A stretch of DNA of 37,864 nucleotides from Opitutus sp. GAS368 (GTDB lineage: Bacteria; Verrucomicrobiota; Verrucomicrobiia; Opitutales; Opitutaceae). The stretch covers positions 1 to 37,864 of the forward strand of contig CAMBVX010000021.1 in assembly GCA_945871085.1 (NCBI GenBank), given 5' to 3'. The position numbers and the translations under genes are program-made. Under the pieces are notes generated by a model, which was not told the origin of the DNA, searched no databases, and saw nothing but the letters and a program-made list of their open reading frames with translations. Below, in pieces: positions 4,848 through 23,581 of this stretch. Position 1 is the first letter of the stretch. Every line of letters starts with the position of its first letter.

Positions 4848-6386
4848 ATGCCCACCACAATCAGGATTGGACTGCCGCCGCGCCGCCGCGGCGTCGCGTT
4901 GCTCGCCATGGGGTTGCTGGCGCTGCCGGCGATAGCGGCGGAGGGCATCCGCGCCGGGTTCGCCGAGCGCGACATCACCCCCGCGATCGGGCAGGAGCGG
5001 CCGGGCGGCTACGGAAAGGCGTTCCATCGCAAATTCCACGACGCCTGCAAGGTCCGCGTGGCCGTCTTCGCGGACGGCACGACGACGGTCGCGATCGTGG
5101 GGGTCGATGCGCTCATGCTTTCGCGCGCGGTCGTGCAGGAGGCGCGCGCCGGGATCGCGCGCGCGACGCCCATCGCGGCGGGCGCGGTGCTGATCGCGGC
5201 GTCGCATTCGCACTCTTCGGGGCCGGTCGGCATGGTGCAGCCGGGCGAATACGACGCGGCGCCCACGGACATCCGCCAGCTCGCCTACGAGCATACGGCG
5301 CAGGCCGACGCCGCCTACCTCGCGCGCGTGCGCGACGCAATCATCGACGGCGTTAAGGCGGCGCAGGCGGCGCTCGCGCCGGCGCGGCTCGGCTTTGGTG
5401 TCGGCCACGAGGATCGGGCGGGATTCAACCGCCGCTTCCGCATGAAGAACGGCCAGACGTGGACCAACCCCGGCGCGGCCAATCCCGACATCATTTCCTA
5501 CGCCGGCCCCATCGATCCCGACGTGGGCGTGATCGGCGCGTGGACGCCCGACGGCCGCCTGCTCGGCGTGATCGTGAACCACGCGCTGCATACGAACATC
5601 TCGCCCGACGGCATCTCGGCGAACTGGGTTTTCCACCTCGAGCAGACGATCCAAGGCGCGTTGCAAACGCAGGTGCCGATCGTGTTTCTCGCCGGCGCAT
5701 GCGGCGATGTTTCGAAGCTCGATGCGCTCAGCCGCTACGAGCGTCCGTCGGAAGGCGAATGGATGCGGCTCGTCGGCGGCCGCGTCGGCGCCGAGGCGGT
5801 GAAGGTCTTGCTCGCCATGCATCGCGGTGCGGATGTGCCGCTCGCTGCGCGCAGCAAAGTCTGGGAAATCCCGCGCCGCGCGCCGGCCGCCGCGAGCGTC
5901 GAGCGTGCGCGCCGCGTCGTCGCGGCGGGGAAGCCGTCGGCGAACCCCGCGCTCACCGACTGGACGTTTGCGAAGGAAACGCTGATGGCCGACTTCCTCG
6001 TGCGCACGGCGCCGCGCGTGGAGGTCGAGGTGCAAGCGATCCAGATCGGGCCGGTCGTGTGCCTGACCGATCCCGCGGAGTATTTCGTGGAATACGGCCT
6101 CGAGTTGAAACGCCGCAGCCCGTTTCCGTTCACGTTTCCCGTTGAGCTCGCGAACGGCTGCGTGGGCTACGTGCCGACCGAGGACGCCTTCGGCCCGAAG
6201 GGCGGCGGTTACGAGACGCGCCTCACGTCCTACAGCAACCTCGCGATCGACGCGGGCCGCCAGTTCGCCGAGGCCGGAGTCGAACTCGCGACGGCGCTGA
6301 AACCCGGCCGCGTGCCCGAGCCGCCGCGCGTCGCCCGTCCCGGCGTGCCGTGGGTTTTCGGCAACGTGCCGCCGCAGGTGGATTGA
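4848..6386 (+). CDS. Neutral/alkaline ceramidase-like hydrolase, paralog 1
   Basis: This 512-residue exported protein has the N-terminal fold of neutral/alkaline non-lysosomal ceramidases, zinc amidohydrolases that release fatty acid from ceramide. A signal peptide covers about residues 1-31. The mature protein opens with AGFAERDITP, then shows SHSHSSGP (H120, H122; zinc-binding block), NHALHTNIS (N244-H248), FLAGACGDVS (277-289 region, with Ser289 where true ceramidases carry the nucleophile) and GYVPTEDAFG near the C-terminus. At about 500 residues it is shorter than classical ceramidases (650-780) and lacks their C-terminal immunoglobulin-like domain. Such short proteins are common in planctomycetes and verrucomicrobia, where their substrate is largely unproven, so amide or ester hydrolysis on a glycan or lipid is possible. 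It is the first gene after the operator. A close paralog lies at 16224-17735. Confidence 0.85.
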   Translation: MPTTIRIGLPPRRRGVALLAMGLLALPAIAAEGIRAGFAERDITPAIGQERPGGYGKAFHRKFHDACKVRVAVFADGTTTVAIVGVDALMLSRAVVQEARAGIARATPIAAGAVLIAASHSHSSGPVGMVQPGEYDAAPTDIRQLAYEHTAQADAAYLARVRDAIIDGVKAAQAALAPARLGFGVGHEDRAGFNRRFRMKNGQTWTNPGAANPDIISYAGPIDPDVGVIGAWTPDGRLLGVIVNHALHTNISPDGISANWVFHLEQTIQGALQTQVPIVFLAGACGDVSKLDALSRYERPSEGEWMRLVGGRVGAEAVKVLLAMHRGADVPLAARSKVWEIPRRAPAAASVERARRVVAAGKPSANPALTDWTFAKETLMADFLVRTAPRVEVEVQAIQIGPVVCLTDPAEYFVEYGLELKRRSPFPFTFPVELANGCVGYVPTEDAFGPKGGGYETRLTSYSNLAIDAGRQFAEAGVELATALKPGRVPEPPRVARPGVPWVFGNVPPQVD

Positions 6387-6408: not shown

Positions 6409-7599
6409 ATGCCCGCCACCGCCACTCTTGAGCCTGAGGTTGTGCCGCCGCCGGCCGTTGCGCCGGCAGTGGGCCGCCTGCGGTCACTCGACGCCTATCG
6501 CGGCTTCATCATGTTCACGCTCGCCGCGGCGGGCTTTGGCACGGTGCAGATGGCGGCGAAGTTTCCGGACTCGTGGTGGGCCGCCGCGGCCGTCCAGTTC
6601 CGCCACGCGCCGTGGGAATGGGGCGTGTTCTGGGACCTGATCATGCCAGCCTTCATGCTGATGGTCGGCGTGGCGATGCCGTTCTCCTACGCGAAGCGCG
6701 CCGCCGTTGGCGATCCGCCTGCGCGCCAGGTGCGCCACGCGATCGGGCGCGCGGCGCTGCTCGCGCTCCTCGGCACGCTGATGATGACGCAGAACGGCCG
6801 CTTCCTGAATGTCCTCACGCAGATCGGGCTCGGCTACGTGTTCGTTTTCCTGTTGCTCGGCCGCAGTGCGCGCACGCAGCTCGCGTGGATGGGCGGCCTG
6901 CTCGCGGGCTGGTGGCTGCTGTTCTCGTTGTATCCGATTCCCGGCGCCACCTACGACTTCGCCGCGGCGAGTGCGAAGTCGGCCGACGTGCTCGAGGGTT
7001 TCCGCGGGCATTGGAGCCGCAACGTCAGCCTCGCCGCCGACTTCGATCGTTGGTTCCTCAACCTTTTTCCGAACGACAAGCCCTTTGTCGCGCACGTCGG
7101 CAGCACGACGACGCTCAACTTCATCCCCGCGATGGCCAACATGCTGCTCGGCGTGATGGCCGGCCAGGTGCTGATGGGCGCGCGCCCTGCGGCAGAAAAA
7201 CTCCGCTGGCTCGTCGTCGCCGGCGCCGGGTGCCTCGTGATCGGCGTCGTGGCGGGGTTCACCGTGTGCCCGGTCGTAAAGCGCATCTGGACACCGTCAT
7301 TCGCGCTCTGGAGCGGCGGGCTGACGCTGTGGATGCTCGCCGCATTCTACGCCGTGATCGATGTGCGCGGGTGGAACCGCTGGTCGCTCCCACTCGAGAT
7401 TCTCGGGATGAACTCGCTCGCCGTCTATCTGATGACGCTCACGTGGCCCGCGTGGATCACGAAGGCGTTTCGCGCTCAGCTCGGCGCCGACACGTTCACG
7501 GGCGCCTACGGCCCGGTGTGGGAGCACCTCGCGTGGCTCGGCGTCATCTGGCTCGTCGCGTGGTGGCTGTGGCGCCGCAAACTTTTCTTCCGCCTGTGA
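6409..7599 (+). CDS. Membrane acyltransferase, HGSNAT/DUF5009-like
   Basis: This 396-residue polytopic membrane protein has roughly ten hydrophobic segments. It begins with a proline/alanine-rich cytoplasmic tail, then the family hallmark RLRSLDAYRGFIMF (residues 23-36), and FRHAPWEWGVFWDLIMPAF. H66 in the latter aligns with the active-site histidine region of heparan-alpha-glucosaminide N-acetyltransferase (HGSNAT). A second hallmark, LEILGMNSLAVYLM, lies near the C-terminus. Human HGSNAT moves acetyl groups from cytosolic acetyl-CoA to the free amine of terminal glucosamine on the other side of the membrane; bacterial relatives are mostly uncharacterised. The following gene, a sulfatase with SGSH-like features, starts inside its stop codon, suggesting that the two act on the same substrate. 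Family assignment is good; amino-sugar specificity is inference. Confidence 0.82.
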   Translation: MPATATLEPEVVPPPAVAPAVGRLRSLDAYRGFIMFTLAAAGFGTVQMAAKFPDSWWAAAAVQFRHAPWEWGVFWDLIMPAFMLMVGVAMPFSYAKRAAVGDPPARQVRHAIGRAALLALLGTLMMTQNGRFLNVLTQIGLGYVFVFLLLGRSARTQLAWMGGLLAGWWLLFSLYPIPGATYDFAAASAKSADVLEGFRGHWSRNVSLAADFDRWFLNLFPNDKPFVAHVGSTTTLNFIPAMANMLLGVMAGQVLMGARPAAEKLRWLVVAGAGCLVIGVVAGFTVCPVVKRIWTPSFALWSGGLTLWMLAAFYAVIDVRGWNRWSLPLEILGMNSLAVYLMTLTWPAWITKAFRAQLGADTFTGAYGPVWEHLAWLGVIWLVAWWLWRRKLFFRL

Positions 7600-9071
7600 A
7601 ACAAATCCTCCTCCCCGCTCTCGCCCTCGCCCTCGCCTTCGCCTTCGTCGCGCCGTGTGCCGCCGCCACGTCCGCGCGCGCCGCCGACGCGCGGCCGAAC
7701 ATCCTGTTTCTCTTCGCCGACAACTGGCTCTACGACCACGCCGGCGCCAACGGCGACCGGCTTGTGAAGACGCCCGCGTTCGACCGTATGGCGCGCGAAG
7801 GCACGCGCTTCACCCACGTGTTTTGCCCGGTGCCGTCGTGCGGCCCGACGCGCTCGAGCCTCGTCACCGGCCGCGCCGCGCACCAGCTCGAGGAAATCGC
7901 CAACCACGGCGGGCGCTTCGCGGGGAAATTCCGCGTGTTCGTGGACGCGCTCGCCACGGCTGGCTACCACACCGGCTACATGGGCAAGGGCTGGGCGCCG
8001 GGAATTTTCCAGGGCTTCGGCCGCACCGAGACGCCGACGGGCAAACTCTACAAGGACTTCCCCGAGTTCCTCGGCAAGCGCGAGCCCGGCCAGCCGCTTT
8101 TCTTCTGGTATGGCTCCACGCACACCGCGCTCCGTTTCTGGAAGCCCGGCCTCGGCCGCAGCCGCGGCATCGATCCGGCGAAGGTCCGCGTGCCCGGCTA
8201 CCTGCCCGACGCGCCCGCCGTGCGGGAGGAAATCGCCGACTACCTCGCGTGCGTGGAGCAGATGGACGCGGAGTTCGGCGCGGCGATCGCGGTGCTGGAG
8301 AAAAGCGGCGAACTCGCCAACACCGTCGTCATCCACACGAGCGACAACGGCTGGCAGATGCCGCGCGGCCTCGGCAGCGTGCACGACGCCGGCACGCACG
8401 TGCCGCTCGCCGTGCGCTGGCCGGGAAAAATCGCCGCGGGCCGCGTCGTCGAGGACTTCGTGTCGGTCACAGACTACGCGCCGACCATTCTCGAACTCGC
8501 CGGCTTACGACCGTGGCCGGAGATGACGGCGCGGAGCTTCGCGGACATTTTGTTGGGCAAGCCGAGCGCCGTCGTGCGCGACCACGTGTTCGTCGAGCGC
8601 GAGCGCCACGCCAACGTCCGCCGCGGCGACCAGAGCTACCCGGTGCGCGGCGTGCGCACGCGCGATTTCCTCTACCTGCGCAACCTCCGCCCCAACCGGT
8701 GGCCCGGCGGCGATCCGATCGTCTATCACTCGGTCGGCGACTACGGCGACGTGGACCCCAGCCGCACCAAGGCCCACATCCTCGCGCACCGGAACGATCC
8801 CGCGATGGCAAAATTCGTTTCGCTCATCCTGAAAAAGCGCCCCGCCGAGGAACTCTACGATGTGCGCAACGATCCGGATCAGTTGCACAACATCGCCGCG
8901 CAGCCCGCATATGCGGCCGCCCTCGCGCAACACCGCGCGCGCGTGGATCAGTGGATGAAGGACACCGCCGATCCGCGCCTCGATCCGAACTACGACGAGT
9001 TCGACAAATATCCCTACTACGGCGGCGGCCTCGCGCCCGAGCTGCGCGCCTGGGAGGCCGAGAAGCCATGA
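7596..9071 (+). CDS. Type I sulfatase 1, SGSH (sulfamidase)-like
   Basis: This is a 491-residue exported sulfatase starting at a GTG that overlaps the previous stop by four bases. Signal peptide about 1-30; then NILFLFADNW with D42/N43 at the metal site. The formylglycine motif is C82-G-P-T-R86, so it is a Cys-type enzyme needing maturation by an enzyme encoded elsewhere. The usual GKWHLG block is replaced by GYMGKGWAPG. The stretch KVRVPGYLPDAPAVREEI followed by an EQMDAEFG helix, SDNG, and the late VRGVRTRDFLYLRNL strand resemble human N-sulfoglucosamine sulfohydrolase (SGSH) more than arylsulfatase A. I infer, with moderate confidence, an N-sulfate or related glycan sulfate as substrate. 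Context supports this: HGSNAT-like acyltransferase just before, amine oxidase just after. Confidence 0.9.
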   Translation: MKQILLPALALALAFAFVAPCAAATSARAADARPNILFLFADNWLYDHAGANGDRLVKTPAFDRMAREGTRFTHVFCPVPSCGPTRSSLVTGRAAHQLEEIANHGGRFAGKFRVFVDALATAGYHTGYMGKGWAPGIFQGFGRTETPTGKLYKDFPEFLGKREPGQPLFFWYGSTHTALRFWKPGLGRSRGIDPAKVRVPGYLPDAPAVREEIADYLACVEQMDAEFGAAIAVLEKSGELANTVVIHTSDNGWQMPRGLGSVHDAGTHVPLAVRWPGKIAAGRVVEDFVSVTDYAPTILELAGLRPWPEMTARSFADILLGKPSAVVRDHVFVERERHANVRRGDQSYPVRGVRTRDFLYLRNLRPNRWPGGDPIVYHSVGDYGDVDPSRTKAHILAHRNDPAMAKFVSLILKKRPAEELYDVRNDPDQLHNIAAQPAYAAALAQHRARVDQWMKDTADPRLDPNYDEFDKYPYYGGGLAPELRAWEAEKP

Positions 9072-10537
9072 ATCGTCGCGACGCCCTCCGCACCGGTGCC
9101 ACGCTCGTCGCCGGCTTCGCCCTCGGCGGGCGCGCCCGCGCCGCCGACGGACGCCGCCCCAAGCGCGTGATCGTCGCGGGCGCCGGCATCGCGGGCCTCT
9201 CGTGCGCCTACGAGCTGATGGAGCGCGGGCACGACGTGACCGTGCTCGAGGCCTCGCGCCGCGCCGGCGGCCACGTGAAGACAATCCGCGATCCGCTGCC
9301 CGACGGACTTTACGCGGATGTCGGCGCCGAGAACATCCCTGGCCGCCCCGCCTACGCGATCGTGTGGGACTACATCGACAAATTCCGACTGAAACCGCTG
9401 GTCTGGCCGCGCCACCACAACCTCCATCGCAAACTCGGCGACCGCTGGGTCAACGAGGCCGAGGTGTTTTCGGATCGTTCGCAACTGCTCGGCCTCGGTT
9501 TCACCGCGCGCGAGGCCGACTACGTTCTCCAGCACGGCATGTCCGAGTTGCCGCTGCTCTTTTTTGGAAAATACCTCGACAAGTTCGGCGACGAAAACCG
9601 CCCGCTCGGCATCGGCCTCGACGATCTCGATCGTCTGCTCCCCGCCGATCTAGCGGCGCGCGAGGGCGCTTCGGACGCCGCGATCCGTTTCGCGCGCCTC
9701 GGCCGCCGCGCCACTGCCGCCAAAGCCGTCGGCACCGCGGCGGGCGACACCTCTGCGCTCTACCGCCTCTGGATCATGGCGATCATCCGCAACCGCGGCC
9801 TGCGCCAGCAGCCGCGCGAGGTCTATCATCTCGAGGGCGGCAACCAGACTCTCACCGACGCGCTCGCCTCCCGTCTCGGCGCGCGCATCCGGCGCCACTG
9901 CCCCGTCCGCTCAATCCGGCACGACGCGGCGGGCGTAACGGTGCGTTGCGAGGAGGCCGGCGCGATGCGGGACTTCACCGCCGATCATCTCGTGCTCGCG
10001 ATGGCGCCGGGCAACATGGCCGCGCTCGACGTGACGCCCGGATGGCCGGCGGGAAAGAAGGCCGCGCTCGCGTCCGTGCCGATGGGCATGCAGTCGCGCG
10101 TGCTGTTGCAGACAAGCACGGCGTTCTGGCGCGGCGACATCCCGAGCATCAATCTCCTCACCGGCGACTCGCGCATGGGCTCCGTCTGCGAGACGGCGAC
10201 CGAGGTGCCCGGCGAGCGCCGGCTGCTTTTCGGCTCGGGCCAGCCCGTGCAGACGCCGGAGCAGACCATCGAGGCGTTCCGCAAATTCTACCCCGGCAAG
10301 GCGCGCGACACGATCGAGCAGTGCATCGTGCACCAATGGTGGAAGGAGGAGCCGACGTGCGTGGGGTGCGAACGCGAACCCTGGCCGCCCGGTCGCATCG
10401 CCGAAGTCTGGCCGCACCTGATCGAGCCTGTGGGGCGCGTGCATTTTGCGGGCGCCGCCTTCGACAGCCTGTGGCGCGGCCTCGAGGCCGCGACGCGTTC
10501 CGCGCACCGCGCCGCCAAACTCATCGACACCGCATGA
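9068..10537 (+). CDS. Tat-exported FAD-dependent amine oxidase family protein
   Basis: This 489-residue flavoprotein belongs to the monoamine-oxidase/protoporphyrinogen-oxidase-like NAD(P)-binding Rossmann superfamily. It starts with a twin-arginine leader (NRRDALRTGA, then a short hydrophobic stretch and ARAADG). The FAD dinucleotide motif GAGIAG (38-43) follows, then E61 (ribose contact) and RRAGGHVKT. The C-terminal flavin block is GRVHFAGAAFDSLWRGLEAA. Tat export fits a cofactor loaded in the cytoplasm. The ATG overlaps the sulfatase stop (ATGA), and its own stop overlaps the next start. The substrate is unknown. Given the neighbours, oxidation of an amine or hydroxyl on a sugar is plausible; desaturation of another compound is equally possible from sequence alone. 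Confidence 0.85.
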   Translation: MNRRDALRTGATLVAGFALGGRARAADGRRPKRVIVAGAGIAGLSCAYELMERGHDVTVLEASRRAGGHVKTIRDPLPDGLYADVGAENIPGRPAYAIVWDYIDKFRLKPLVWPRHHNLHRKLGDRWVNEAEVFSDRSQLLGLGFTAREADYVLQHGMSELPLLFFGKYLDKFGDENRPLGIGLDDLDRLLPADLAAREGASDAAIRFARLGRRATAAKAVGTAAGDTSALYRLWIMAIIRNRGLRQQPREVYHLEGGNQTLTDALASRLGARIRRHCPVRSIRHDAAGVTVRCEEAGAMRDFTADHLVLAMAPGNMAALDVTPGWPAGKKAALASVPMGMQSRVLLQTSTAFWRGDIPSINLLTGDSRMGSVCETATEVPGERRLLFGSGQPVQTPEQTIEAFRKFYPGKARDTIEQCIVHQWWKEEPTCVGCEREPWPPGRIAEVWPHLIEPVGRVHFAGAAFDSLWRGLEAATRSAHRAAKLIDTA

Positions 10538-11421
10538 ACCGCCGCGATTTTCTCCGCTCCTCCGCCGGCGCCGCCGCGCTGGCCTCGCTCGGCCGCGCCG
10601 CCGCCGCGCCCGCGTCCCTCGCCGGCGAGATCGGCATCACCTCCGGGTCGTTCATGCGGCACCTTTCGCACGAGCGCGCCGCCGGCAAGCTCCGCCTGCT
10701 CGACCTTCCAAAGATCATGCGCGACGAACTCGGCATGAAGGTGATCGACCTCATGACGGCGACGCTCGTCTCGCTCGAGCCGGCCTACGTCGATCAGCTC
10801 CGGGCCGCCGCGACCGATGCCGGCTGCGTGATCACCAATTTGAAAATAAATTTCGCGCAGGCCGATCTCGGCCAAGCCGATCCGGCGGTGCGGCGCGCCG
10901 CGGTCGCCGAGGTGAAGCGCGCGCTGGACGTCGCCGCGCGCCTCGGCGCGCGCTGGGTGCGGCCGCTGCCCGGCAACAAGCGCGCCGATCTCGCCGCGAC
11001 GGCGTCGTCGTATCGCGAGCTCGCGGACTACGGCGGCGAGCGCGGGCTCACCGTGCTCGTCGAGAACATCGGCTGGATGAAGGAGGACGCCGACGGCGTG
11101 CCCGATCTCATCCGCGCGGTCGGTCCGCGGATTCGCGCGCAGCCTGACACCGGCAACTGGGCCGACGCCGTGCGCTACGCCGGGCTCGCGAAGGCGTTTC
11201 CGCTCGCCGCGTCGTGCGACTTCAAAGCACTCGACCTCGGCCCCGACGGCACGCACACCACCTACGATCTGCGGCGCTGCTTCCAAATCGGGTGGGACGC
11301 CGGCTTCCGCGGCCCGTGGGCCATCGAGCATTTCCACGCCGATCTCGCCCAGCTCCTGCGCCAGATGGGCCAGCTGCGCAACCTGCTCCAACGCTGGACG
11401 AAGGAGCAAGCTCAACGTTGA
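10534..11421 (+). CDS. Tat-exported TIM-barrel sugar isomerase/epimerase-like protein
   Basis: This 295-residue member of the xylose-isomerase-like TIM-barrel superfamily (annotated as sugar phosphate isomerase/epimerase) has a twin-arginine signal NRRDFLRSSAG and an Ala-rich hydrophobic region, with the mature part beginning near ASLAGEIGI. Candidate metal ligands are in VLVENIGW (Glu), QPDTGNWAD (Asp) and WAIEHFHADL (Glu/His) near the C-terminus. Export argues against a phosphorylated substrate. Secreted relatives in PVC and Bacteroidota genomes often accompany Gfo/Idh/MocA enzymes and act, where tested, on keto-sugars or as metal-dependent lyases. It overlaps the amine-oxidase gene by four bases. 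Confidence 0.83.
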   Translation: MNRRDFLRSSAGAAALASLGRAAAAPASLAGEIGITSGSFMRHLSHERAAGKLRLLDLPKIMRDELGMKVIDLMTATLVSLEPAYVDQLRAAATDAGCVITNLKINFAQADLGQADPAVRRAAVAEVKRALDVAARLGARWVRPLPGNKRADLAATASSYRELADYGGERGLTVLVENIGWMKEDADGVPDLIRAVGPRIRAQPDTGNWADAVRYAGLAKAFPLAASCDFKALDLGPDGTHTTYDLRRCFQIGWDAGFRGPWAIEHFHADLAQLLRQMGQLRNLLQRWTKEQAQR

Positions 11422-14781: not shown

Positions 14782-16227
14782 GTGATCACCGCATCCCATC
14801 ATCTCCTCCTCGCCGCGCTTAGCGCGCTCGCGATCTCCACCGCCTCTGCGCAGCCACGTTCCCCCGCGCGCCCGCCGAACATCCTCATATTTTTCTGCGA
14901 CAACCTCGGCTACGGCGACATCGGCCCCTACGGTTCCACGCTTCACCGCACGCCCAACCTCGATCGCTTCGCGACCGAGTCGCGCAAGTTTACGCACTTC
15001 TACACCGCAGCCAACGTCTGCACGCCGTCGCGCGCCGGCCTCATGACCGGCATCCATCCGCGCCGCCTGAACCTCCACACCAATGCCCGCAGCGGCGCCG
15101 TCCTCCAGCCCGGTGAACCCATCGGCCTCCATCCCTCCGAGGTCACGGTCGCCGAGGTGCTCAAGACCGCCGGCTACACCACAATGCTCATCGGCAAGTG
15201 GCACCTGGGCGACCAGCCGGTGTTCCTCCCCACGCGCCAGGGCTTCGACGAATACTGGGGCATCCCCTACAGCGACGACATGACGCCCCGCGAGGGCCAG
15301 ACGTGGCCGCCGCTCCCGCTCATGCGCGGCGAGACCGTCATCGAGGCTGGCCCGGATCGCAACGAACTCACGAAACGCGAAACCTCCGAGGCCATCCACT
15401 TCATCACCGCGAACCGGGAGCGCCCGTTCTTTCTCATCATCTCGCACGCGATGCCCGGCAGCACGACCGCGCCGTTTGCGAGCGACGCCTTCCGCGGTAA
15501 GTCGCGCAACGGCCCGCACGGCGATTCCGTCGAGGAACTCGACTGGTCCGCCGGCGAAGTGCTCGCCGCCCTGCGCCGCCTCGGCCTCGACAACGACACG
15601 CTCGTCATCTGGACCGCCGATAACTCCGCCACGCGTCGCCAGCCGTTTGGCGGCAGCAACGCGCCGCTCTCCGGTCACATGAACTCCCCCGCCGAGGGTG
15701 GCAACCGCGTGCCGTTTCTCGTCCGCTGGCCGTCGCGCATCCCCGCCGGCACGACCAGCACCGAACTCGCCTCGATGATGGATCTCCTGCCGACCTTCGC
15801 GCGGCTCGCCGGCGCCGCCACCGCGCCCGGCCCGGAGGTAATCGACGGCCGTGACATCTGGCCGCTCATCGCCGGCACGCCGGGCGCGCGCACGCCGCAC
15901 GAGTCGTTCTATTATTATCACTTCGACCAGCTGCAGGCCGTGCGCTCCGGCCCGTGGAAACTCTTCCTTGCGCTCGACCGCGTGCGCACGACGTCGGCGC
16001 AGCCGCCGCGCGAGGGCCGGGTGGCCGCACGCCTCTTCGACGTCGTCGCCGATCCAGGCGAGAAGAACGATGTCGTCGCCGCGCACCCGGACGTCGTCGC
16101 CCGCCTCACCGCGCTCGCCGCCAAGGGCCGCGAGCACATCGGCGACTACGACCTTGAGGGCCGCGGCGTCCGCCCCGCCGGCTGGATTCGCAATCCGCAG
16201 TATCAGGTGCTGCGTCCTTCCCGATGA
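14782..16227 (+). CDS. Type I sulfatase 2, arylsulfatase-A-like
   Basis: This is a 481-residue exported sulfatase. I chose the GTG at 14782, which gives a clean signal peptide (about 1-23, ending ASAQ); any earlier start would translate the intergenic repeat. Metal-site residues D40/N41 sit in FCDNLGYGDI. The formylglycine motif is C80-T-P-S-R84 (Cys type). Downstream blocks are EVTVAEVLKTAGYTT, IGKWHLGDQPVFLPTRQGFDE, GIPYSDDM and TADNS. The PTRQGFDEYWGIPYS region resembles arylsulfatase A, whose human form desulfates galactosyl-3-sulfate ceramide; bacterial members mostly desulfate galactose-type sugars in polysaccharides. Its stop overlaps the start of the second ceramidase-like gene (ATGA), so joint action is likely. 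Confidence 0.92.
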   Translation: MITASHHLLLAALSALAISTASAQPRSPARPPNILIFFCDNLGYGDIGPYGSTLHRTPNLDRFATESRKFTHFYTAANVCTPSRAGLMTGIHPRRLNLHTNARSGAVLQPGEPIGLHPSEVTVAEVLKTAGYTTMLIGKWHLGDQPVFLPTRQGFDEYWGIPYSDDMTPREGQTWPPLPLMRGETVIEAGPDRNELTKRETSEAIHFITANRERPFFLIISHAMPGSTTAPFASDAFRGKSRNGPHGDSVEELDWSAGEVLAALRRLGLDNDTLVIWTADNSATRRQPFGGSNAPLSGHMNSPAEGGNRVPFLVRWPSRIPAGTTSTELASMMDLLPTFARLAGAATAPGPEVIDGRDIWPLIAGTPGARTPHESFYYYHFDQLQAVRSGPWKLFLALDRVRTTSAQPPREGRVAARLFDVVADPGEKNDVVAAHPDVVARLTALAAKGREHIGDYDLEGRGVRPAGWIRNPQYQVLRPSR

Positions 16228-17735
16228 GACGCTTCCCATCAGTCGCATTCGTCTCATTCCTCCTGACGCTCGCGATCGCTGACGCCGCCACCGCCGTCCG
16301 CGCCGGTTTCGCCGAGCGCGACATCTCGCCGACAATCGGCATGCGCGAGGCCCACGCGATTGCGCGCCACGTCTTCAAGACGCACGTCGATCCCTGCAAG
16401 GTCCGCGCCGCCGTCTTCGACGACGGCCTCGCGCGGGTCGCGCTCGTCTCGCTCGACGCCCTGATCATCCCGCGCGAGGTCGTGCTGCGCGCGCGCACCG
16501 GCATCGCCCGCGCCACCGGCCTCGCGCCCGGCTCCGTGCTGATCGCGGCCACGCATTCGCACTCGTCGGGCCCTATCGGTATCGTCACACTGGCGCAGTT
16601 CGAACGCGCACCGCGCGACATCCAGCGCCTCGCCTACGAGGAATCCTCGCTCGCCGATCCCGCCTACCTCGCGACCGTCGAGCGCGAAATCGTCGAGGCC
16701 GTGCGCCTCGCCCACACGCGGCTCGCGCCCGTCTCGCTCGGCTTCGGTTTCGGAGAGGAGCACAAGGTCGCCTTCAACCGCCGCCAACGCATGAAAAACG
16801 GCAGGACCTGGAGCCACGCCGGCGCGATGAACCCCGACATCGCCGGCTACGCCGCGCCCGTCGATCCGCAGGTCGGCGTCGTCGGCGCCTGGAACGCCGA
16901 CGGCCAGCTCGTCGGCGTAATCGTTAACTTCGCCTGTCACGCCACGACCAATCCCGGAGGCATCTCCGCCAACTGGCCCGGCGCGATGGAGCGCACGATT
17001 CAGGGCGCGCTGCGCACGACGGCGCCGGTGTTGTTTCTCGCCGGGCCTTCCGGCGACGTCACGCAAGTGGACAACCTCAGCCCCTACGAGCGCCCGACGC
17101 CTACGCGGTGGCTCGAACAGGTCGGCGGCTGCGTCGGTGCCGAGGCCGTCAAGGTGCTGCTCACGATGCCGCGCACCGACGGGGCCACGCTCGCTGCGCG
17201 CGGGAAAACCTGGCGCATCGCGCGCCGCGTGCCCTCGCCCCAGCGCGTCGCGCACGCCCGCGAAATCGTCGCCGCCGGCAAATCCGCCGCGGGCGCGGCG
17301 CTCACGGAGTGGACGTTCGCGCGCGAGACGCTGCTGCTGGATCACATCGTGACGGTCGAGCCCGACGTCGAGGTCGAGGTGCAGGCGGTGCAGGTCGGCC
17401 CCGCGGTTTTCCTCAGCAGCCCGGCGGAGTATTTCGTCGAGTTCGGCCTCGAGCAGAAACGCCGCAGCGCGTTTCCGTTCACGTTTCCCGTGTCGTGCGC
17501 AAACGGCTCCGTCGGCTACGTGCCGACCGAGGAGGCGTTCGGTCCCGGCGGCGGCGGCTACGAGACGCGCCTCACCTTTTACAGCAACCTCGAGATCACC
17601 GCCGGCCGCCAGTTTGCCGAAGCCGGCCTCGCGCTCGCCGCGCAACTGCGCCCCGACCCCGCGCCCGATCACCCGCGTATCGCCGCCCCCGGCACGCCGT
17701 GGCCCCACGGCAAAGTCGATCCTCAGATTCGCTGA
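16224..17735 (+). CDS. Neutral/alkaline ceramidase-like hydrolase, paralog 2
   Basis: This 503-residue exported protein is a full-length paralog of the gene at 4848-6386. Signal peptide about 1-22; mature start near VRAGFAERDISP. Conserved blocks: THSHSSGP (H111, H113), NFACHATTNPGG (N235-H239), FLAGPSGDVT and GYVPTEEAFG. The position matching the ceramidase nucleophile is Thr280 (GDVT), whereas paralog 1 has Ser289, so the two may differ in activity or substrate. The 190-250 region (RMKNGRTWSHAGAMNPDI) is conserved between paralogs and absent from classical ceramidases as I know them. It is placed between two sulfatases, overlapping the first by four bases and ten bases before the second. 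Amidase activity on ceramide is unproven for such short homologs. Confidence 0.85.
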   Translation: MRRFPSVAFVSFLLTLAIADAATAVRAGFAERDISPTIGMREAHAIARHVFKTHVDPCKVRAAVFDDGLARVALVSLDALIIPREVVLRARTGIARATGLAPGSVLIAATHSHSSGPIGIVTLAQFERAPRDIQRLAYEESSLADPAYLATVEREIVEAVRLAHTRLAPVSLGFGFGEEHKVAFNRRQRMKNGRTWSHAGAMNPDIAGYAAPVDPQVGVVGAWNADGQLVGVIVNFACHATTNPGGISANWPGAMERTIQGALRTTAPVLFLAGPSGDVTQVDNLSPYERPTPTRWLEQVGGCVGAEAVKVLLTMPRTDGATLAARGKTWRIARRVPSPQRVAHAREIVAAGKSAAGAALTEWTFARETLLLDHIVTVEPDVEVEVQAVQVGPAVFLSSPAEYFVEFGLEQKRRSAFPFTFPVSCANGSVGYVPTEEAFGPGGGGYETRLTFYSNLEITAGRQFAEAGLALAAQLRPDPAPDHPRIAAPGTPWPHGKVDPQIR

Positions 17736-17745
17736 AGCCTTTCCC

Positions 17746-19185
17746 ATGAGACCCTTCCCTTCAGTCCCTGCCCTCCCGTTCATCATCTTCCTCCTCTTGC
17801 TCTCCACCGCTGCGGCGTTCGCTGCACCCGCCAAGCCCGCGAAACCCAATCTGATTTTCATCCTCACCGACAACCAGGGCGCCTGGACCCTCGGCTGCTA
17901 CGGCAACCCCGACATCCGCACACCACACATCGATCGCCTCGCCGGCGAAGGTATCCGCTTCACCCGCGCGCTCAGCAGCAATCCGGTGTGCTCGCCCACG
18001 CGCGCCACGTTTCTCACGGGTCTCATCCCGTCGCAGCACGGCCTCCAGACGCCCGTCACGCCGCCGATCATGATGGGGCCGCGCGCGTACAACACCCTCG
18101 CCGAGTTCACCTCGCTCGGCGAAATCCTCCGCGACGCCGGCTACACCTGCGGCCTCAGCGGCAAGTGGCACCTCGGCGACAACCTCCGCCCCAGCGAGGG
18201 TTTTTCTTTCTGGGTAACGAAGCCTGAGGGCAGCACGCAGGAGTTCTACGATCAGCCCGTGATCGAAAACGGCGCCGTGCGCAAGGAGCCCGGCTACACC
18301 ACCGATCTCTGGACGCGCAAGGGCATCGAGTTCATCGAGCAGAACCAAGCGCGGCCGTTCTTCCTCTATCTCGCCTACAACGGCCCGTATTCGCTCGGCC
18401 CGCTCATGATGAACCGCGCGCGCAACCGCCACGCCGCCGCCTACCGAGATCACCATTTCAAAAGTTTCCCGGTCGATGCGATGCACCCGTGGCAGCATCA
18501 CAACAAGCAGTTTCACAACCAGCAGCTCGCGATGGAGCGCCTCGCCGCGGAGACGAGCGGCGTCGACGACGGTGTCGGCGAAATCATGGCCACGCTCAAG
18601 CGCCTTGGCCTCGATGAAAACACGCTCGTCGTCTACTCCGCCGACCAAGGCTGGATGGGCGGACAGAACGGCCTCTGGGGCATGGGCGATCACACGCGGC
18701 CGCACGGCGCGCACGAGCTGATGATGCAGGTGCCGCTGCTCTTCCGGCAGCCGGCGCGTATCCCCTCCGGCCGCACGAGCGATCTGCTCGTGAGCAACTA
18801 CGATTTTCTCCCGTCCGTGCTCACGCACCTCGGCCTCGGCGATCGGATGCCCACGAAGCCGCGCTCGCCCGGCCGCGATTTTTCCGCCGCGCTCCGCGGT
18901 GCCGCGCCCGCCTGGGACAACGTGATTTTCTACGAAATGGAGGACACGCGTGCCGTCCGCACCGACACGTGGAAATACGTCGCGCGCCACCCGGCCGGCC
19001 CGTTCGAGCTCTACGATATGCGCGCCGATCCCCGCGAGCGCTTCAACCTCTACGGCCAGCCCGGCATCGAGCCCCGCCGCGCCGAACTCGCCGCGCAGCT
19101 CGGCACGTTTTTCGCCACCCACGCCGATCCGCGCTTCGACCGCTGGAAGAGCGGCCGCGACGCCGCGCGCCTGCCGACGCCATGA
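17746..19185 (+). CDS. Type I sulfatase 3
   Basis: This is a 479-residue exported sulfatase. Signal peptide about 1-26 (hydrophobic IIFLLLLSTAAAFAA). The metal site is D42/N43 in LTDNQGAWTLGCYGN; formylglycine motif C82-S-P-T-R86; then GLSGKWHLGD. Late in the protein YSADQGWMGGQNG supplies the Asp/Gln pair, and GDHTRPHGAHELMMQVPL is characteristic of its subgroup. It lacks the PTRQGFDEYWGIPY block of sulfatase 2 and the GKGWAPG block of sulfatase 1, so it is a separate subfamily and likely attacks a different sulfate position. ELYDMRADPRERFNL is the usual C-terminal subdomain signature. It overlaps the following heme protein gene by four bases. Confidence 0.92.
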   Translation: MRPFPSVPALPFIIFLLLLSTAAAFAAPAKPAKPNLIFILTDNQGAWTLGCYGNPDIRTPHIDRLAGEGIRFTRALSSNPVCSPTRATFLTGLIPSQHGLQTPVTPPIMMGPRAYNTLAEFTSLGEILRDAGYTCGLSGKWHLGDNLRPSEGFSFWVTKPEGSTQEFYDQPVIENGAVRKEPGYTTDLWTRKGIEFIEQNQARPFFLYLAYNGPYSLGPLMMNRARNRHAAAYRDHHFKSFPVDAMHPWQHHNKQFHNQQLAMERLAAETSGVDDGVGEIMATLKRLGLDENTLVVYSADQGWMGGQNGLWGMGDHTRPHGAHELMMQVPLLFRQPARIPSGRTSDLLVSNYDFLPSVLTHLGLGDRMPTKPRSPGRDFSAALRGAAPAWDNVIFYEMEDTRAVRTDTWKYVARHPAGPFELYDMRADPRERFNLYGQPGIEPRRAELAAQLGTFFATHADPRFDRWKSGRDAARLPTP

Positions 19186-22124
19186 GCATTCGACCCCGTT
19201 TCCGCCTCGTCGCCGCGTGCGCCTTCCTCGCGCTCGCCGCGTCCGCCCAGGCCGCCCGCTTTTCCGGCGAACCCGAAATCCAGCGCGAGCCGCTCTCGCC
19301 CGCCGCCGCGCTCAAATCGTTCCGCCTCGATCCCGGCCTCCGCATCGAGCTCGTCGCCAGCGAGCCGATGATCACCGACCCCGTGGACATCTGCTTCGAC
19401 GAGCGCGGCTGGATGTTCGTCGTCGAGAACAACGGTTACAACCGCGATCCAAAAATCCGCCCGCGTTCGCGCATCAAACGCCTCGAGGACACCGACGGCG
19501 ACGGCCGCATGGATCGCATGACGCTCTTCGCCGACGATCTCGACTACGCGCAGGGCGTGCTCTGCGTGCGCGGCGGCCTGCTCGTCACGTCCAACACCGC
19601 CATTCTCCTTCTGCACGACGACAACGACGACGGCCGCGCCGACCGCACCGAGACGCTGTTCACCGTCGCGCCCGCGCTCCACACCGATCGCCAGATGTCC
19701 GCGCCGCGCCGCGCGCCCGACAACTGGGTCTATCTGAACCTCGGACTCTTCAAGCAGGAGCTCACGCCCGCGGGTGCGCCCGGGCGCCGCTTCACGATTA
19801 CGAGCAACTTTCGCTGGCATCCCGGCACCGCCGAGTTTGGGCCCGCGTCCGGCTCCGGCCAGTTCGGCCAGGCGATCGACGATTGGGGCCGGCGCTTCTT
19901 CAGCCAGAACCGCAACCCCGGGCTCTTCGCCGTCCTGCCGCGCCACTTCCTCGATCGCAACCCCGCCGCGCTGCTCACGAAGTCCGACGACGACGTCGTG
20001 CCCGCCGGCGGCGACGGGAAAGTCTATCCGTTGAAAACCTTCCGCACCACCGCGAGCGCGCACGCCGGCTCGTTCACGGCTGCGTGCGGCACCGGCGTCT
20101 ATCGCGGCGATCTGCTCGGCGACGCCTACGCCGGTGATCTCTTCGTGTGCGAGCCGACGGGTTCGCTCGTCACGCGCTGGAAACTCGACCCCGCCAGCGC
20201 GAGTTTCAAGGCCCGCCGCGTGCATCCGACGCGCGAGTTTCTCGCCAGCGAGGACGAGTGGTTCCGTCCGGTAAACATCGTCAACGGACCCGATGGCGCA
20301 CTCTACGTTGTCGACATGTATCGCCGCTTCCTCGATGGCTCGCGCTTTTTTCCGGACGAGTTCGTCGCTGCCAACGACATGGCCGCCGGCTCCGCGCACG
20401 GCCGCATCTATCGGATCGTGCCCGAGTCGATGCCGCGCGGCCGCCGTGTCGCTCCCGTCCCTGCTGATGCCCCGGGTCGCGTTGCGCTCCTCGAGCATCG
20501 CAACGGCTGGCACCGCGACACCGCGCAGCGCCTGCTCGTCGAGGCGCGCGACGCCTCCGTCGTGCCCGCCGTCGAGGCGCTGCTGCGCGGCAGCCGTTTT
20601 GCGCCGGCCCGCCTCCACGCGCTCGGCGTGCTCGAAGGTCTCAACCGAATCAAGCCCGCGCACCTCGAGACGGCGCTCGGCGATGCCGAGCCGCGCGTCG
20701 TGGAATTCGCCCTGTGGTTCGCGCCGCGTTTCCTCGGCGAGAGCGCCGCGCTGCGCCGACAGGTTGTGGAACTCGCCGCGAGCCCCGCGCCTCGCGTGCG
20801 CTTCGCTGCGGTGCTGGTGGCCGGTGGCCTCACCGGCGACGAGACAGAGCGCCTCCTCGCGCGCGCCACCGCGCGTGACGCCGCCGACCCGTGGATGCGC
20901 GCCGCGGTCCTGAGTTCGCCCGCCACGCGCTCGGGCGGCGTGCTCGCGGTATTGCTGGCGGATTCCGCCTTCGCCGCTGCTCCCGCGGCGGGCCGCGCTG
21001 AGATCGTCGCCGGCCTCGCCGCGGTGCTCGCCGCCGACGGCGACTCCGCCGCGCTGCGGCCCGCGCTCGCCGCGCTGGCTGCTCCCGCCGGCGACGCAGA
21101 CGGCGACTGGTGGCGCCTCGCCGTACTTCGCGGCGTCGCCGACGGCCTGCGCCGCCAGCCGGTCGTGCGCCTCCCGAAGTCGATTCCCGAGCTGCTCGAG
21201 AAACCGCCCGCCGAACTCGCCAGTTGGCTCGACGGCGTGCGCCGTGTCGCTTCTGCCGCCACCGCCGCGCTGCGCGATCCCGCACGGCCGGCGGCGGCGC
21301 GGCTCGCCGCGATTCCGTTTCTCGAGCACATGCCGCGCGCCGACGCGCTCGGTTTCGTCGGCCCGCTGACACACCGCCGCGAATCGCCCGAGGTGCAGCG
21401 CGCCGCGGTCGAGGCGTTCCGCCATCTGCCGCGCGCCGAGGTTGCCCCGGCGTTCTATCAAAACCTCCCCGATATGGGCGCCACGGCGCGCACCGCCGCC
21501 ATCCAGTTTCTCCAGCAGAACCCCGCCGAGCTGCTGAAGAACATCAAGGCCGGCCGCCTCAACCCCTCGCTCGTTGATGCGATGGGCCGCTGGCTGATCC
21601 TGAATTCCAGCACCGAGGAGGTGCGGAAACTCGGCCGCGAGGTCTTCGGCGCGGCCGAGGATGATCGCCGGAAACTCGTGCGTCGCTACGCCGCCGCGCT
21701 ACCCGGCCTGGACGGCTCCGCCGAGCGCGGGCGCGCGGTCTTCGCGCAGACCTGCGCCGTGTGCCACCGTTTCCGTGGCGAGGGCGCCGAGGTCGGCCCC
21801 GATATCACCGACGTGCGCATCAAGACCCCCGAGATGCTCCTTTCCGACATTCTCGATCCCAACAACGCCATCGAGCCGCGCTGGGAGGCGTTCTCCTTCA
21901 CCGCCGAAGGCGGACGCAACGTCGTCGGCATGATCGTCTCCGAGACCGACACCGCCGTGATCGTGCGCCACGCCGGCGGCACTGAGACGCTCGCCCGCGA
22001 CGGCATCACCGCCTCGTCGCCGCTCGGCCTCTCGCTCATGCCGCAAGGCCTCGAGGCCGCGCTCGACGAGCCGCGCATGGCTGATCTCATTGCCTACCTT
22101 CGCAGCGATCCCCACGCGAAATGA
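19182..22124 (+). CDS. PVC-type heme-binding dehydrogenase/HEAT/cytochrome c protein 1
   Basis: This 980-residue periplasmic protein has the composite build typical of planctomycetes and verrucomicrobia. Signal peptide about 1-24 (ASAQA). Residues about 45-430 form a beta-propeller of the soluble sugar-dehydrogenase/PVC membrane-bound-dehydrogenase type, with a calcium-binding-like DTDGDGRMD (103-111), ending at SAHGRIYRIVP. A helical HEAT-repeat-like region spans about 450-830. A C-terminal cytochrome c domain carries C858-A-V-C-H862, and SLMPQG supplies a candidate axial methionine. The expected role is oxidation of a sugar or alcohol and electron transfer to the respiratory chain through heme c. 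It is embedded between two sulfatases with four-base overlaps on both sides. Activity and substrate are unproven for the family. Confidence 0.88.
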   Translation: MSIRPRFRLVAACAFLALAASAQAARFSGEPEIQREPLSPAAALKSFRLDPGLRIELVASEPMITDPVDICFDERGWMFVVENNGYNRDPKIRPRSRIKRLEDTDGDGRMDRMTLFADDLDYAQGVLCVRGGLLVTSNTAILLLHDDNDDGRADRTETLFTVAPALHTDRQMSAPRRAPDNWVYLNLGLFKQELTPAGAPGRRFTITSNFRWHPGTAEFGPASGSGQFGQAIDDWGRRFFSQNRNPGLFAVLPRHFLDRNPAALLTKSDDDVVPAGGDGKVYPLKTFRTTASAHAGSFTAACGTGVYRGDLLGDAYAGDLFVCEPTGSLVTRWKLDPASASFKARRVHPTREFLASEDEWFRPVNIVNGPDGALYVVDMYRRFLDGSRFFPDEFVAANDMAAGSAHGRIYRIVPESMPRGRRVAPVPADAPGRVALLEHRNGWHRDTAQRLLVEARDASVVPAVEALLRGSRFAPARLHALGVLEGLNRIKPAHLETALGDAEPRVVEFALWFAPRFLGESAALRRQVVELAASPAPRVRFAAVLVAGGLTGDETERLLARATARDAADPWMRAAVLSSPATRSGGVLAVLLADSAFAAAPAAGRAEIVAGLAAVLAADGDSAALRPALAALAAPAGDADGDWWRLAVLRGVADGLRRQPVVRLPKSIPELLEKPPAELASWLDGVRRVASAATAALRDPARPAAARLAAIPFLEHMPRADALGFVGPLTHRRESPEVQRAAVEAFRHLPRAEVAPAFYQNLPDMGATARTAAIQFLQQNPAELLKNIKAGRLNPSLVDAMGRWLILNSSTEEVRKLGREVFGAAEDDRRKLVRRYAAALPGLDGSAERGRAVFAQTCAVCHRFRGEGAEVGPDITDVRIKTPEMLLSDILDPNNAIEPRWEAFSFTAEGGRNVVGMIVSETDTAVIVRHAGGTETLARDGITASSPLGLSLMPQGLEAALDEPRMADLIAYLRSDPHAK

Positions 22125-23581
22125 ACTTTCCCCGCTTCGTCGTCCCCCTCCTCTTACCGCTCGCGCTCGCCGCCGCCGAGCCCCGGCCCAATTTCCTCAT
22201 TTTCCTCGCCGACGATCTCGGCTACGGCGATCTCGCGTGCTTCGGCCACCGCGAGATCCAGACGCCCCACCTCGACCGCCTCGCAGCCGAGGGGCTGAAG
22301 CTCACCGCGTGCTATTCCGCCGCTGCTGTCTGCTCGCCCGCGCGCGCCGGTATCATGACGGGCCGCACGCCCTACCGCGTCGGCATCTACAACGCCATTC
22401 CGTTTCTCAGCCCCACGCACCTGCGCGCGAGCGAGATCACGATCGCCTCGTTGCTGCGGAAAGGCGGCTACGCCACCGCGCAGGTCGGCAAATGGCACCT
22501 CAACGGTTTTTTCAATCTCCTCGGCCAGCCCCAGCCCGGCGATCACGGCTTCGAGCATTGGTTCGCCGTCCAGAACAACGCGCTGCCGAATCATCTCAAC
22601 CCTTTCAACTTCGTCCGTAACGGAGTCCCGCTCGGCCCGCAGCCCGGCTACTCCGGCGCCATCGTCGCCGCCGAGGCCGTGCGCTGGCTTGAGTCCGGCC
22701 GCGATCGCACGAAGCCGTTCTTCCTCTACGTCGCGCTGCACGAGCCCCACGAGCCGATCATGACCGATCCAGCGTTTGCCGATCGCTACCGCGCGCGGCA
22801 TCCCGACGACCCGAGTCGCGTCGCCTACTACGGCAATGTCACGCAGCTGGACGCCGCCGTCGGTCGCATCCTCGCCGCGCTCGAGTCGCAGGGCCTCGCC
22901 GCCGACACGCTCGTGTGGTTCACCTCCGACAATGGCCCCGCGCGCACGCGTTACCACAACGTCGGCTCGTCAGGCGGATTCCGGGAATTCAAAAGCCACC
23001 TCTACGAGGGCGGCATCCGCGTGCCGGGCATCGTGCGCTGGCCGCGGCGCATCAAGCCCGGCTCCGTGAGCGACACGCCGGTGAGCGGCGTCGACGTGTT
23101 GCCCACGCTCTGCGAGCTCGCCGGTCTCGCCCCCCCCGCCGATCGCGCGATCGACGGCGCGAGCGTCGCCGCGCTCCTCGCGGGTGGCGAGTTTCGCCGC
23201 GTTCAGCCGCTCTATTGGCAAAACCACTGGTCGCCCGCGCTCGGCCCGCAGGTCGCGCTGCGCGACGGCCCGTGGAAAATCCTCGCGCGCCACGACGCCC
23301 CGCGCCCGCGCGCCGGCGATCACAACCAGTCGCACATCGTCGCGCACAAGACAGCGCCGCTCACCGGCTTCGAGCTCTACGATCTCTCGCGAGATCCCGC
23401 GGAGAAATACGATCTCGCGCCGGCAGAGCCGGCGCGCCTCGCCGAGCTGCGCACGAAGCTCGATAGGTTCCACGCCAGCGTCCGCGCCGAAGCGCCCCTC
23501 TGGCCCTCGTGGGAAGATCCCGGCTACGAGGCCAAGACCATCGTGTGGCCCAGCTACCAACCCAAACCCCTGGCCAAGTAA
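22121..23581 (+). CDS. Type I sulfatase 4
   Basis: This is a 486-residue exported sulfatase and the most canonical of the four. Signal peptide about 1-19. It keeps the full Asp-Asp pair (D31, D32 in LADDLGYGDL). Its formylglycine motif is C71-S-P-A-R75, followed by AGIMTGRTPYRVGIYN, VGKWHLNG, ALHEPHEP and FTSDNGPART. The segment SHLYEGGIRVPGIVRWP is the classic late substrate-pocket block of arylsulfatases. The C-terminal tail (EDPGYEAKTIVWPSYQ) is short and unusual but not diagnostic. It overlaps the preceding heme protein gene by four bases and lies ten bases before the next heme protein gene. Confidence 0.93.
   Translation: MNFPRFVVPLLLPLALAAAEPRPNFLIFLADDLGYGDLACFGHREIQTPHLDRLAAEGLKLTACYSAAAVCSPARAGIMTGRTPYRVGIYNAIPFLSPTHLRASEITIASLLRKGGYATAQVGKWHLNGFFNLLGQPQPGDHGFEHWFAVQNNALPNHLNPFNFVRNGVPLGPQPGYSGAIVAAEAVRWLESGRDRTKPFFLYVALHEPHEPIMTDPAFADRYRARHPDDPSRVAYYGNVTQLDAAVGRILAALESQGLAADTLVWFTSDNGPARTRYHNVGSSGGFREFKSHLYEGGIRVPGIVRWPRRIKPGSVSDTPVSGVDVLPTLCELAGLAPPADRAIDGASVAALLAGGEFRRVQPLYWQNHWSPALGPQVALRDGPWKILARHDAPRPRAGDHNQSHIVAHKTAPLTGFELYDLSRDPAEKYDLAPAEPARLAELRTKLDRFHASVRAEAPLWPSWEDPGYEAKTIVWPSYQPKPLAK

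Follow-up and report, generated by a model that had tools for sequence, protein, structure and literature searches.

In animal lysosomes, N-sulfoglucosamine sulfohydrolase (SGSH) exposes the amine that heparan-alpha-glucosaminide N-acetyltransferase (HGSNAT) then acetylates. In bacteria, Phep_2826, a periplasmic sulfatase of subfamily S1_8 from P. heparinus, converts N-sulfoglucosamine (GlcNS) to glucosamine (GlcN) (PMC10154612), and fitness data showed NagX to be required for the use of GlcN, its authors proposing in 2022 that the acetylation is periplasmic (PMC9007349). Each step thus has a bacterial precedent of its own, the P. heparinus enzyme for the first and NagX, which takes GlcN to N-acetylglucosamine (GlcNAc), for the second. 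Few bacterial N-sulfatases have to our knowledge been characterised, and we know of little work on what becomes of glucosamine released outside the cytoplasm. Here we describe a stretch of 37,864 nucleotides (the window: positions 1 to 37,864, forward strand, of contig CAMBVX010000021.1, assembly GCA_945871085.1) from Opitutus sp. GAS368, a member of the Verrucomicrobiota, in which the gene of an HGSNAT-like protein (HGS) overlaps that of an S1_8-like sulfatase (SULF). Our finding is that this pairing is real and recurrent. A limited search of the open-licence literature returned no report of a sulfatase gene paired with an HGSNAT-like gene. Such a recurrent, overlapping pair would tie desulfation and acetylation together and provide a bacterial counterpart, open to experiment, of the enzymes that are deficient in Sanfilippo A and C. 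In addition, the sulfatase belongs to a clade of 75 rows that has the formylglycine site minus two sulfate ligands, which makes it a test of which pocket residues sulfatases need.

The coupled genes

The genes at the centre of the analysis, with the overlaps that join them, are the following:
6409..7599, forward strand: HGS, putative HGSNAT/NagX-like transmembrane acetyltransferase, 396 amino acids (matches to NagX and to HGSNAT in the PDB; AlphaFold fold)
7596..7599, forward strand: GTGA, overlap of the HGS stop and the SULF start (read from the sequence)
7596..9071, forward strand: SULF, predicted S1_8-like formylglycine sulfatase, 491 amino acids (PF00884 and SGSH_C; fold like S1_8A/B/C and SGSH)
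9068..9071, forward strand: ATGA, overlap of the SULF stop and the next start (read from the sequence)
9068..10537, forward strand: AO, putative flavin adenine dinucleotide (FAD) oxidoreductase, 489 amino acids, amine oxidase superfamily, twin-arginine motif at its start (PF01593; beside HGS and SULF in loci L088-L090)

An earlier note on this DNA had described three genes coupled by four-base overlaps, and the letters of the window bear this out: SULF starts with the GTG at 7596 inside the HGS-terminal GTGA, and AO with the ATG at 9068 inside the SULF-terminal ATGA. The note had passed over a fourth coupled gene, TIM, which is joined to the AO stop by another ATGA (10534-10537). The SLDAYRGF and HAPWE blocks that it had reported in HGS are both present. 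Third-position GC is 0.87-0.89 across HGS, SULF, AO and TIM, and this value, together with homologues elsewhere, indicates that the four are real genes.

Recurrence of the pairing in relatives

Relatives were collected by a genome scan with a profile of the SULF clade, of whose 130 loci the best 80 were kept. The scan used two clade-derived peptide patterns, SDNGW and ERERHA, and so favours clade members, although the residues discussed below (Asn43, Ala178 and Leu259) lie outside these patterns. Nearly all loci are metagenome assemblies in which genes were called by our own open reading frame script; most are labelled Verrucomicrobia/Opitutae and the rest are Planctomycetes or, in a few cases, other groups, 69 of the 80 have about 1.4 kb or more of upstream sequence, and two contigs are present twice (L118 is the L064 contig and L134 the L066 contig). 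An HGSNAT-like gene or its remnant is found in 19/80 loci with a hidden Markov model of the HGS family, and in 18/80 by tblastn with the HGS of the window. Twelve such genes and one remnant (L114) lie directly upstream of SULF on the same strand, three are separated from it by one lyase gene (L135, L137 and L141), two lie 3-5 kb upstream (L109 and L117) and one lies directly downstream (L103). At 12 of the 13 upstream junctions, counting that of the L114 remnant, the two frames share an xTGA overlap, L106 being the one without. All paired loci fall within the 69 whose sulfatase lacks the counterpart of SGSH His181 (19/69, as against 0 among the other 11). As a control, we looked in the reverse direction at 29 HGSNAT-like loci of the family, the top match from each of 26 genomes and three others, the two paired genes of G031:C45 and G007:C2 not being among them; with flanks of up to 1.5 kb, some cut by contig ends, one of the 29 has a sulfatase neighbour.

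The co-occurrence that the earlier note had set as a test of its reading therefore exists for HGSNAT-like genes and the SULF clade, and the full HGS-SULF-AO triplet is seen in three other Opitutae, L088, L089 and L090, with SULF identities of 94%, 86% and 78%. The L089 triplet has different flanking genes, and TIM is found in L088 and L090, not in L089.

A tree of 54 acetyltransferases, built without duplicate contigs, the fragment from L129 or the remnant from L114, places the 19 paired rows in opposite halves, four in a window-type clade and fifteen in a clade nearer to NagX. The paired label needs two changes on this tree, both forced by well-supported branches, and none of 500 shuffles scored as low. 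Because two distant acetyltransferase clades are paired, one sulfatase clade would have gained an HGSNAT-like partner at least twice, and the pairing thus seems, from these sequences, to have arisen at least twice; a single origin on the acetyltransferase side is incompatible with the tree. A further arrangement was observed in L002/L069 (G031:C52), which holds, of the HGS relatives outside the triplet, one of the two nearest in identity (49%), followed directly by a different kind of sulfatase (34-35% to the protein of window positions 22121-23581), perhaps a third pairing.

The company of the pair differs between loci. Common to L065, L135, L137 and L141 are a receptor, HGS, SULF, a ROK kinase and a second SULF, with a lyase between HGS and SULF; Pfam assigns this lyase to PF14099 in L065 and L135, and the L135 protein has 71-84% identity with those of L065, L137 and L141. 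For the L065 lyase there is a match to glucuronan lyase 2zzj (8e-7). L109 encodes a GH79C protein, and L125 has the order CysG-like gene (a label by sequence), sulfite reductase, HGS, SULF; the sulfite reductase was recognised by Pfam in L066 and, in L125, by its clustering with the L066 protein. Separately, the SULF on contig L153, which is labelled Polynucleobacter, groups within Verrucomicrobia rows, and the contig is probably misbinned.

The sulfatase and its active site

Pfam recognises PF00884 (5.7e-36) and SGSH_C, PF16347 (3.7e-17), in SULF. A profile built from five clade members ranked S1_8A first (1.7e-58), followed by a GlcNAc-6-sulfatase (1.1e-47), SGSH (2.2e-47) and S1_8B (8.5e-47). 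With the AlphaFold model (45-row alignment, mean predicted local distance difference test (pLDDT) 89.2), the top 20 Foldseek chains were all S1_8, namely S1_8A, S1_8B, S1_8C and SGSH, with other sulfatases below. The six best VIA rows were S1_8 as well (among them S1_8C, Z 43.2; SGSH, Z 41.0; S1_8A, Z 40.8), S1_8B standing lower (Z 35.2 and 32.4), in a list where the absence of a family excludes nothing. SULF is therefore filed, by its predicted structure, as S1_8-like and not as SGSH.

The activities named for S1_8 in the literature consulted all act at C2 of the sugar, on N-sulfoglucosamine, galactose-2-sulfate or xylose-2-sulfate (PMC12549532, PMC5066984, PMC10154612). The lambda-carrageenan sulfatases S1_8A, S1_8B and S1_8C (9bb9, 9bbd and 9bba) are classed as galactose-2-O-sulfatases, and a xylose-2-O-sulfatase is also known in S1_8 (PMC12549532). 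S1_8A is nearest to SULF by sequence, and with S1_8C it is among the nearest folds, the C2 specificity being theirs (PMC12549532); it differs from SULF in the Lys aligned with Leu259 and in its carrageenan locus, for which the available part of the source names no HGSNAT partner (PMC12549532). Human SGSH, itself S1_8 (4mhx/4miv), shares with SULF the fold (Z 41.0, root-mean-square deviation 2.4, 405 residues), the SGSH_C domain and the formylglycine motif. The likeness to SGSH that the earlier note had drawn thus stands for the predicted fold and fails at four of the ten active-site residues.

Those ten residues are listed in the structural study of SGSH (PMC4014121), in which His181 is the proposed acid and Arg282, which bridges Asp32 and Asp399, distinguishes SGSH from O-sulfatases; the O-sulfatases of its Table 2 retain the His of position 181 and carry Lys at position 282, and the F. 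heparinum N-sulfamidase is predicted in silico to lack the active-site His (PMC4014121). The SULF positions concerned are:
7722..7724, forward strand: Asn43, at the position of SGSH metal ligand Asp32 (alignment)
7839..7853, forward strand: C82-G-P-T-R86, the formylglycine motif (sequence and alignment)
8127..8129, forward strand: Ala178, at the position of the proposed acid His181 of SGSH (alignment)
8370..8372, forward strand: Leu259, at the position of SGSH Arg282, which is Lys in the compared O-sulfatases (alignment)

In the alignment, SULF retains six of the ten (Asp42, Cys82, Arg86, Lys131, Asp250 and Asn251, the like residues of SGSH being Asp31, Arg74, Lys123, Asp273 and Asn274) and replaces four (Asp32 by Asn43, His125 by Trp133, His181 by Ala178 and Arg282 by Leu259). 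One of the four metal-site residues has therefore changed, giving Asp42, Asn43, Asp250 and Asn251 in place of the Asp-Asp-Asp-Asn of SGSH, and the S1 sulfate-binding pair of His with Lys or Arg is replaced by Ala178 and Leu259. By a hand count on the alignment, SULF His338 falls at SGSH His367 or His368 and Asp373 at Asp399. Half of what the earlier note had named as telling against its reading, a place among O-sulfatases with loss of the SGSH pocket, is seen: His125, His181 and Arg282 are absent and Asp32 has become Asn, in a subfamily that also holds 2-O-sulfatases.

These changes are a property of the clade. Among 112 aligned rows (P_L035, P_L036 and P_L075 were left out, two as duplicates and one as distant and badly aligned), 80 combine Asn43 with Leu259 and 32 combine Asp43 with Lys259, mixed rows being absent. 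The counterpart of His181 is missing in 75 of the 80 Asn43/Leu259 rows and kept in L143, L146, L148, L156 and L165. The 75 rows lacking this His all conserve Asp42, Asp250, Asn251 and the Cys82, Pro84 and Arg86 of the C-x-P-x-R maturation motif that is present in SULF, and 74 of them conserve Lys131. Asp373 is found in 79/79 readable Asn43/Leu259 rows versus 12/32 of the others. Trp133 is not special to the SULF clade, since 29 of the 32 outgroup rows have it too. On the sulfatase tree, made by a quick method and with no bootstrap, both pocket labels need one change each (SH-aLRT 98 and 91). The bridge that Arg282 forms in SGSH would explain why Asn43 and Leu259 changed together.

The acetyltransferase

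At 1e-3, no Pfam family is recognised in HGS. The protein matches the NagX_SO_3504 model (NF046061) at 1.1e-35 with 123.5 bits, below the equivalog cut-off of 480, and HGSNAT in the PDB at 5.5e-5 by sequence and at 7.2e-28 with an 18-row profile. The best match of the AlphaFold model (mean pLDDT 76.6) is human HGSNAT, 8vkj (E 5.5e-10, TMq 0.68). We therefore file HGS, on its sequence and predicted fold, as HGSNAT-like and not as NagX. HGSNAT uses a His297-Asp307 catalytic dyad, Asn286 and the sugar-binding Glu499 being further residues (PMC11199644), and proteins of the TmAT superfamily acylate varied acceptors (PMC12423673). The dyad corresponds to H66-D76 of HGS, which is invariant in the 18 paired rows, as are D28-x-x-R31 and R114, features of that superfamily (PMC12423673). 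HGS thus shares the predicted HGSNAT fold, the His-Asp dyad and the DxxR motif with NagX and human HGSNAT; the latter differs in having Asn286, Glu499 (as aligned) and an extra N-terminal part, HGS being only 396 amino acids long. The assignment to an HGSNAT-type acyltransferase in the earlier note accordingly agrees with the fold and the dyad, and less well with the missing counterparts of Asn286 and, as aligned, Glu499.

A possible function for the pair and its alternatives

The reading that we put forward, tentatively and at a little short of an even chance, is that HGS and SULF form a periplasmic unit in which desulfation at C2 is followed by acetylation of the freed amine. SULF would remove the sulfate at C2 of an imported oligosaccharide or monosaccharide in the periplasm, HGS would take acetyl from acetyl-CoA in the cytosol and pass it through the inner membrane to the exposed amine, and the product would be an N-acetyl sugar for downstream enzymes; AO and TIM may come in at a later stage or in a side reaction. 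In favour of this reading are the recurrent pairing with its conserved overlaps and its control, the two origins on the acetyltransferase side, the S1_8 fold with its C2 activities, the need for NagX in GlcN use, the lyase, GH79C and sulfite-reductase neighbours in relatives, and 14 places in the own genome that match the FGE-sulfatase family (three in one frame). The order of steps would be that of SGSH and HGSNAT in the lysosome, and the step proposed for SULF is the one catalysed by Phep_2826, a comparison by reaction only. The bacterial SGSH-HGSNAT-like module of the earlier note keeps the support of a recurrent pairing and a fitting step order; the sulfate may be on nitrogen or on oxygen, and the pocket has changed.

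Several observations weigh against this reading. The SULF pocket does not bear the mark of an N-sulfatase, as His181 and Arg282 are both absent, and the S1_8 kin of SULF include 2-O-sulfatases, the top sequence match being S1_8A and not SGSH. In HGS, Asn286 of HGSNAT is aligned with Gly (acidic or other residues in the remaining paired rows), and no Glu lies near the place of Glu499, in an alignment that falls where model confidence is low; the counterpart of Glu499 is kept in the other paired clade. With these two counterparts missing, the acceptor of HGS may differ from plain GlcN. Fifty of the 69 loci lacking the His have no HGS in the stretch examined, some stretches being short, and the same lyase lies near SULF in L124 (the culture strain Brevifollis gellanilyticus NBRC 108608) and L154, with no HGS in the stretch examined. 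The paired label needs eight changes on the quick sulfatase tree, at least six of them forced, so the pairing was probably gained or lost often. L134/L066 has no HGS, and its SULF frame opens with an N-terminal tail that resembles HGS; L114 retains only a C-terminal HGS remnant. This looks like two separate deletions of HGS with SULF kept, though assembly error may underlie it. These losses lie beside sulfite-reductase genes with SULF intact, which suggests a use for SULF by itself in the vicinity of sulfur assimilation genes, HGS handling the other product. Finally, heparan sulfate is unlikely as the substrate in this organism and was rejected, because its genome (7.37 Mb, 630 contigs, 95.8% complete) contains no match to GH88 or PF14099; four Hepar_II_III_C matches are too general to rescue a heparan reading.

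It is also possible, though on the unlikely side, that SULF is a 2-O-sulfatase acting on galactose-, xylose- or uronate-2-sulfate and that HGS acetylates another group, N or O, of the same glycan. The S1_8 enzymes of the carrageenan and xylose type, the S1_8A match, the absent Arg282 and the varied acceptors of TmAT proteins (PMC12423673) all fit this. However, it gives no reason for an HGSNAT-like partner gained twice, and the O-sulfatases of Table 2 have Lys282 and His181 (PMC4014121), neither of which is found in SULF. The joint fixation of Asn43 and Leu259 in 80/112 rows, with the His missing in 75 of the 80, could alternatively mean that the clade left sulfate hydrolysis and that the pocket serves another ester, an amide or a binding role. 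We regard this as distinctly unlikely: the formylglycine motif and the remaining ligands are conserved in practically all of the 75 rows, the F. heparinum N-sulfamidase is also predicted to lack the His (PMC4014121), and the gene orders sulfite reductase-HGS-SULF (L125) and sulfite reductase-SULF (L134/L066) suit a release of sulfate.

Operons that join a transporter to an enzyme are common, and HGS might be a sugar permease that imports the desulfated product, like MurT, the putative transporter of N-acetylmuramic acid. NagX is indeed distantly related to TfMurT (PMC9007349), but the predicted HGSNAT fold of HGS, with the invariant residues given above, and the fact that HGSNAT does not carry its substrate across the membrane (PMC11199644) make this improbable. 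Chance is the least credible account. The genome is rich in sulfatases, with 212 places matching SULF, of which several are parts of a single gene; nevertheless, a sulfatase neighbours 1/29 control acetyltransferases against 19/80 in the reverse direction, and order and overlaps are conserved, so a fortuitous neighbourhood is very hard to believe.

Returning to the periplasmic unit, a more specific version, which we consider rather doubtful, would have the Asp32-Arg282-Asp399 network of SGSH replaced by Asn43-Leu259-Asp373 and the sulfamate cleaved with neither the acid His nor the Lys/Arg; the unit, an S1_8-derived sulfatase with an HGSNAT-like protein exchanging sulfate for acetyl in the periplasm, would then have been built at least twice in Verrucomicrobiota and their kin.

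The amine oxidase and other genes of the window

AO matches PF01593 at 1.3e-46 (160.3 bits, cut-off 19.8). Its N-terminus, MNRRDALR, holds a twin-arginine motif by eye, and the Pfam TAT_signal model has no match at 1e-3; the Tat-exported FAD amine oxidase of the earlier note is kept as to family and as to a twin-arginine start. Flavin amine oxidases have a Lys near the flavin N5. The best PDB match is an L-amino acid oxidase whose Lys aligns with an Arg of AO, and this Arg is found in 8/8 AO rows, the window included. Strict homologues are rare: counting the own genome, they occur in 2/61 family genomes at 1e-30 and in 3/387 phylum genomes at 1e-60, with four candidates scored per genome. AO stands beside HGS in two settings, with SULF as in the window, and with esterases in G054, where an HGS paralogue lies between two AO genes (L067, G054:C121), esterase-like proteins (PF01738/PF05448) follow each AO, and no match to the window sulfatases lies in the 20 kb examined. 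Around two strict homologues, L086 and L087, tblastn found no HGS or window-type sulfatase in the about 20 kb examined. AO was therefore rejected as a constant member of the unit. For AO as a rival route for the free amine, as the earlier note had suggested, no result speaks, given its rarity at strict cut-offs and the Arg at the usual Lys position.

Two further genes adjoin the triplet:
10534..11421, forward strand: TIM, xylose-isomerase-like TIM barrel with a twin-arginine (TAT) signal (PF01261, PF10518; in L088 and L090)
4848..6386, forward strand: CER1, neutral-ceramidase-like protein (PF04734, 23.4 bits, cut-off 32.1; in L088 and L090)

Downstream of the quartet, the window encodes a TonB-dependent receptor, more sulfatases, a second ceramidase-like protein, cytochrome-c/DUF7133 proteins, Gfo/Idh/MocA dehydrogenases and one DUF4432 protein. 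The DUF7133 proteins, at 18969-22124 and 23601-27164, have cytochrome c ends and lie within the sulfatase-rich cluster. CER1 ends 22 bases before the HGS start, and it forms with the gene at 16224-17735 a neutral-ceramidase-like pair (PF04734, 23.4 and 29.1 bits, both below the cut-off of 32.1). Each of the two lies near a sulfatase, in an order retained in L088 and L090, and if a ceramidase-like amidase released an amine upstream of HGS, the acceptor could come from there instead.

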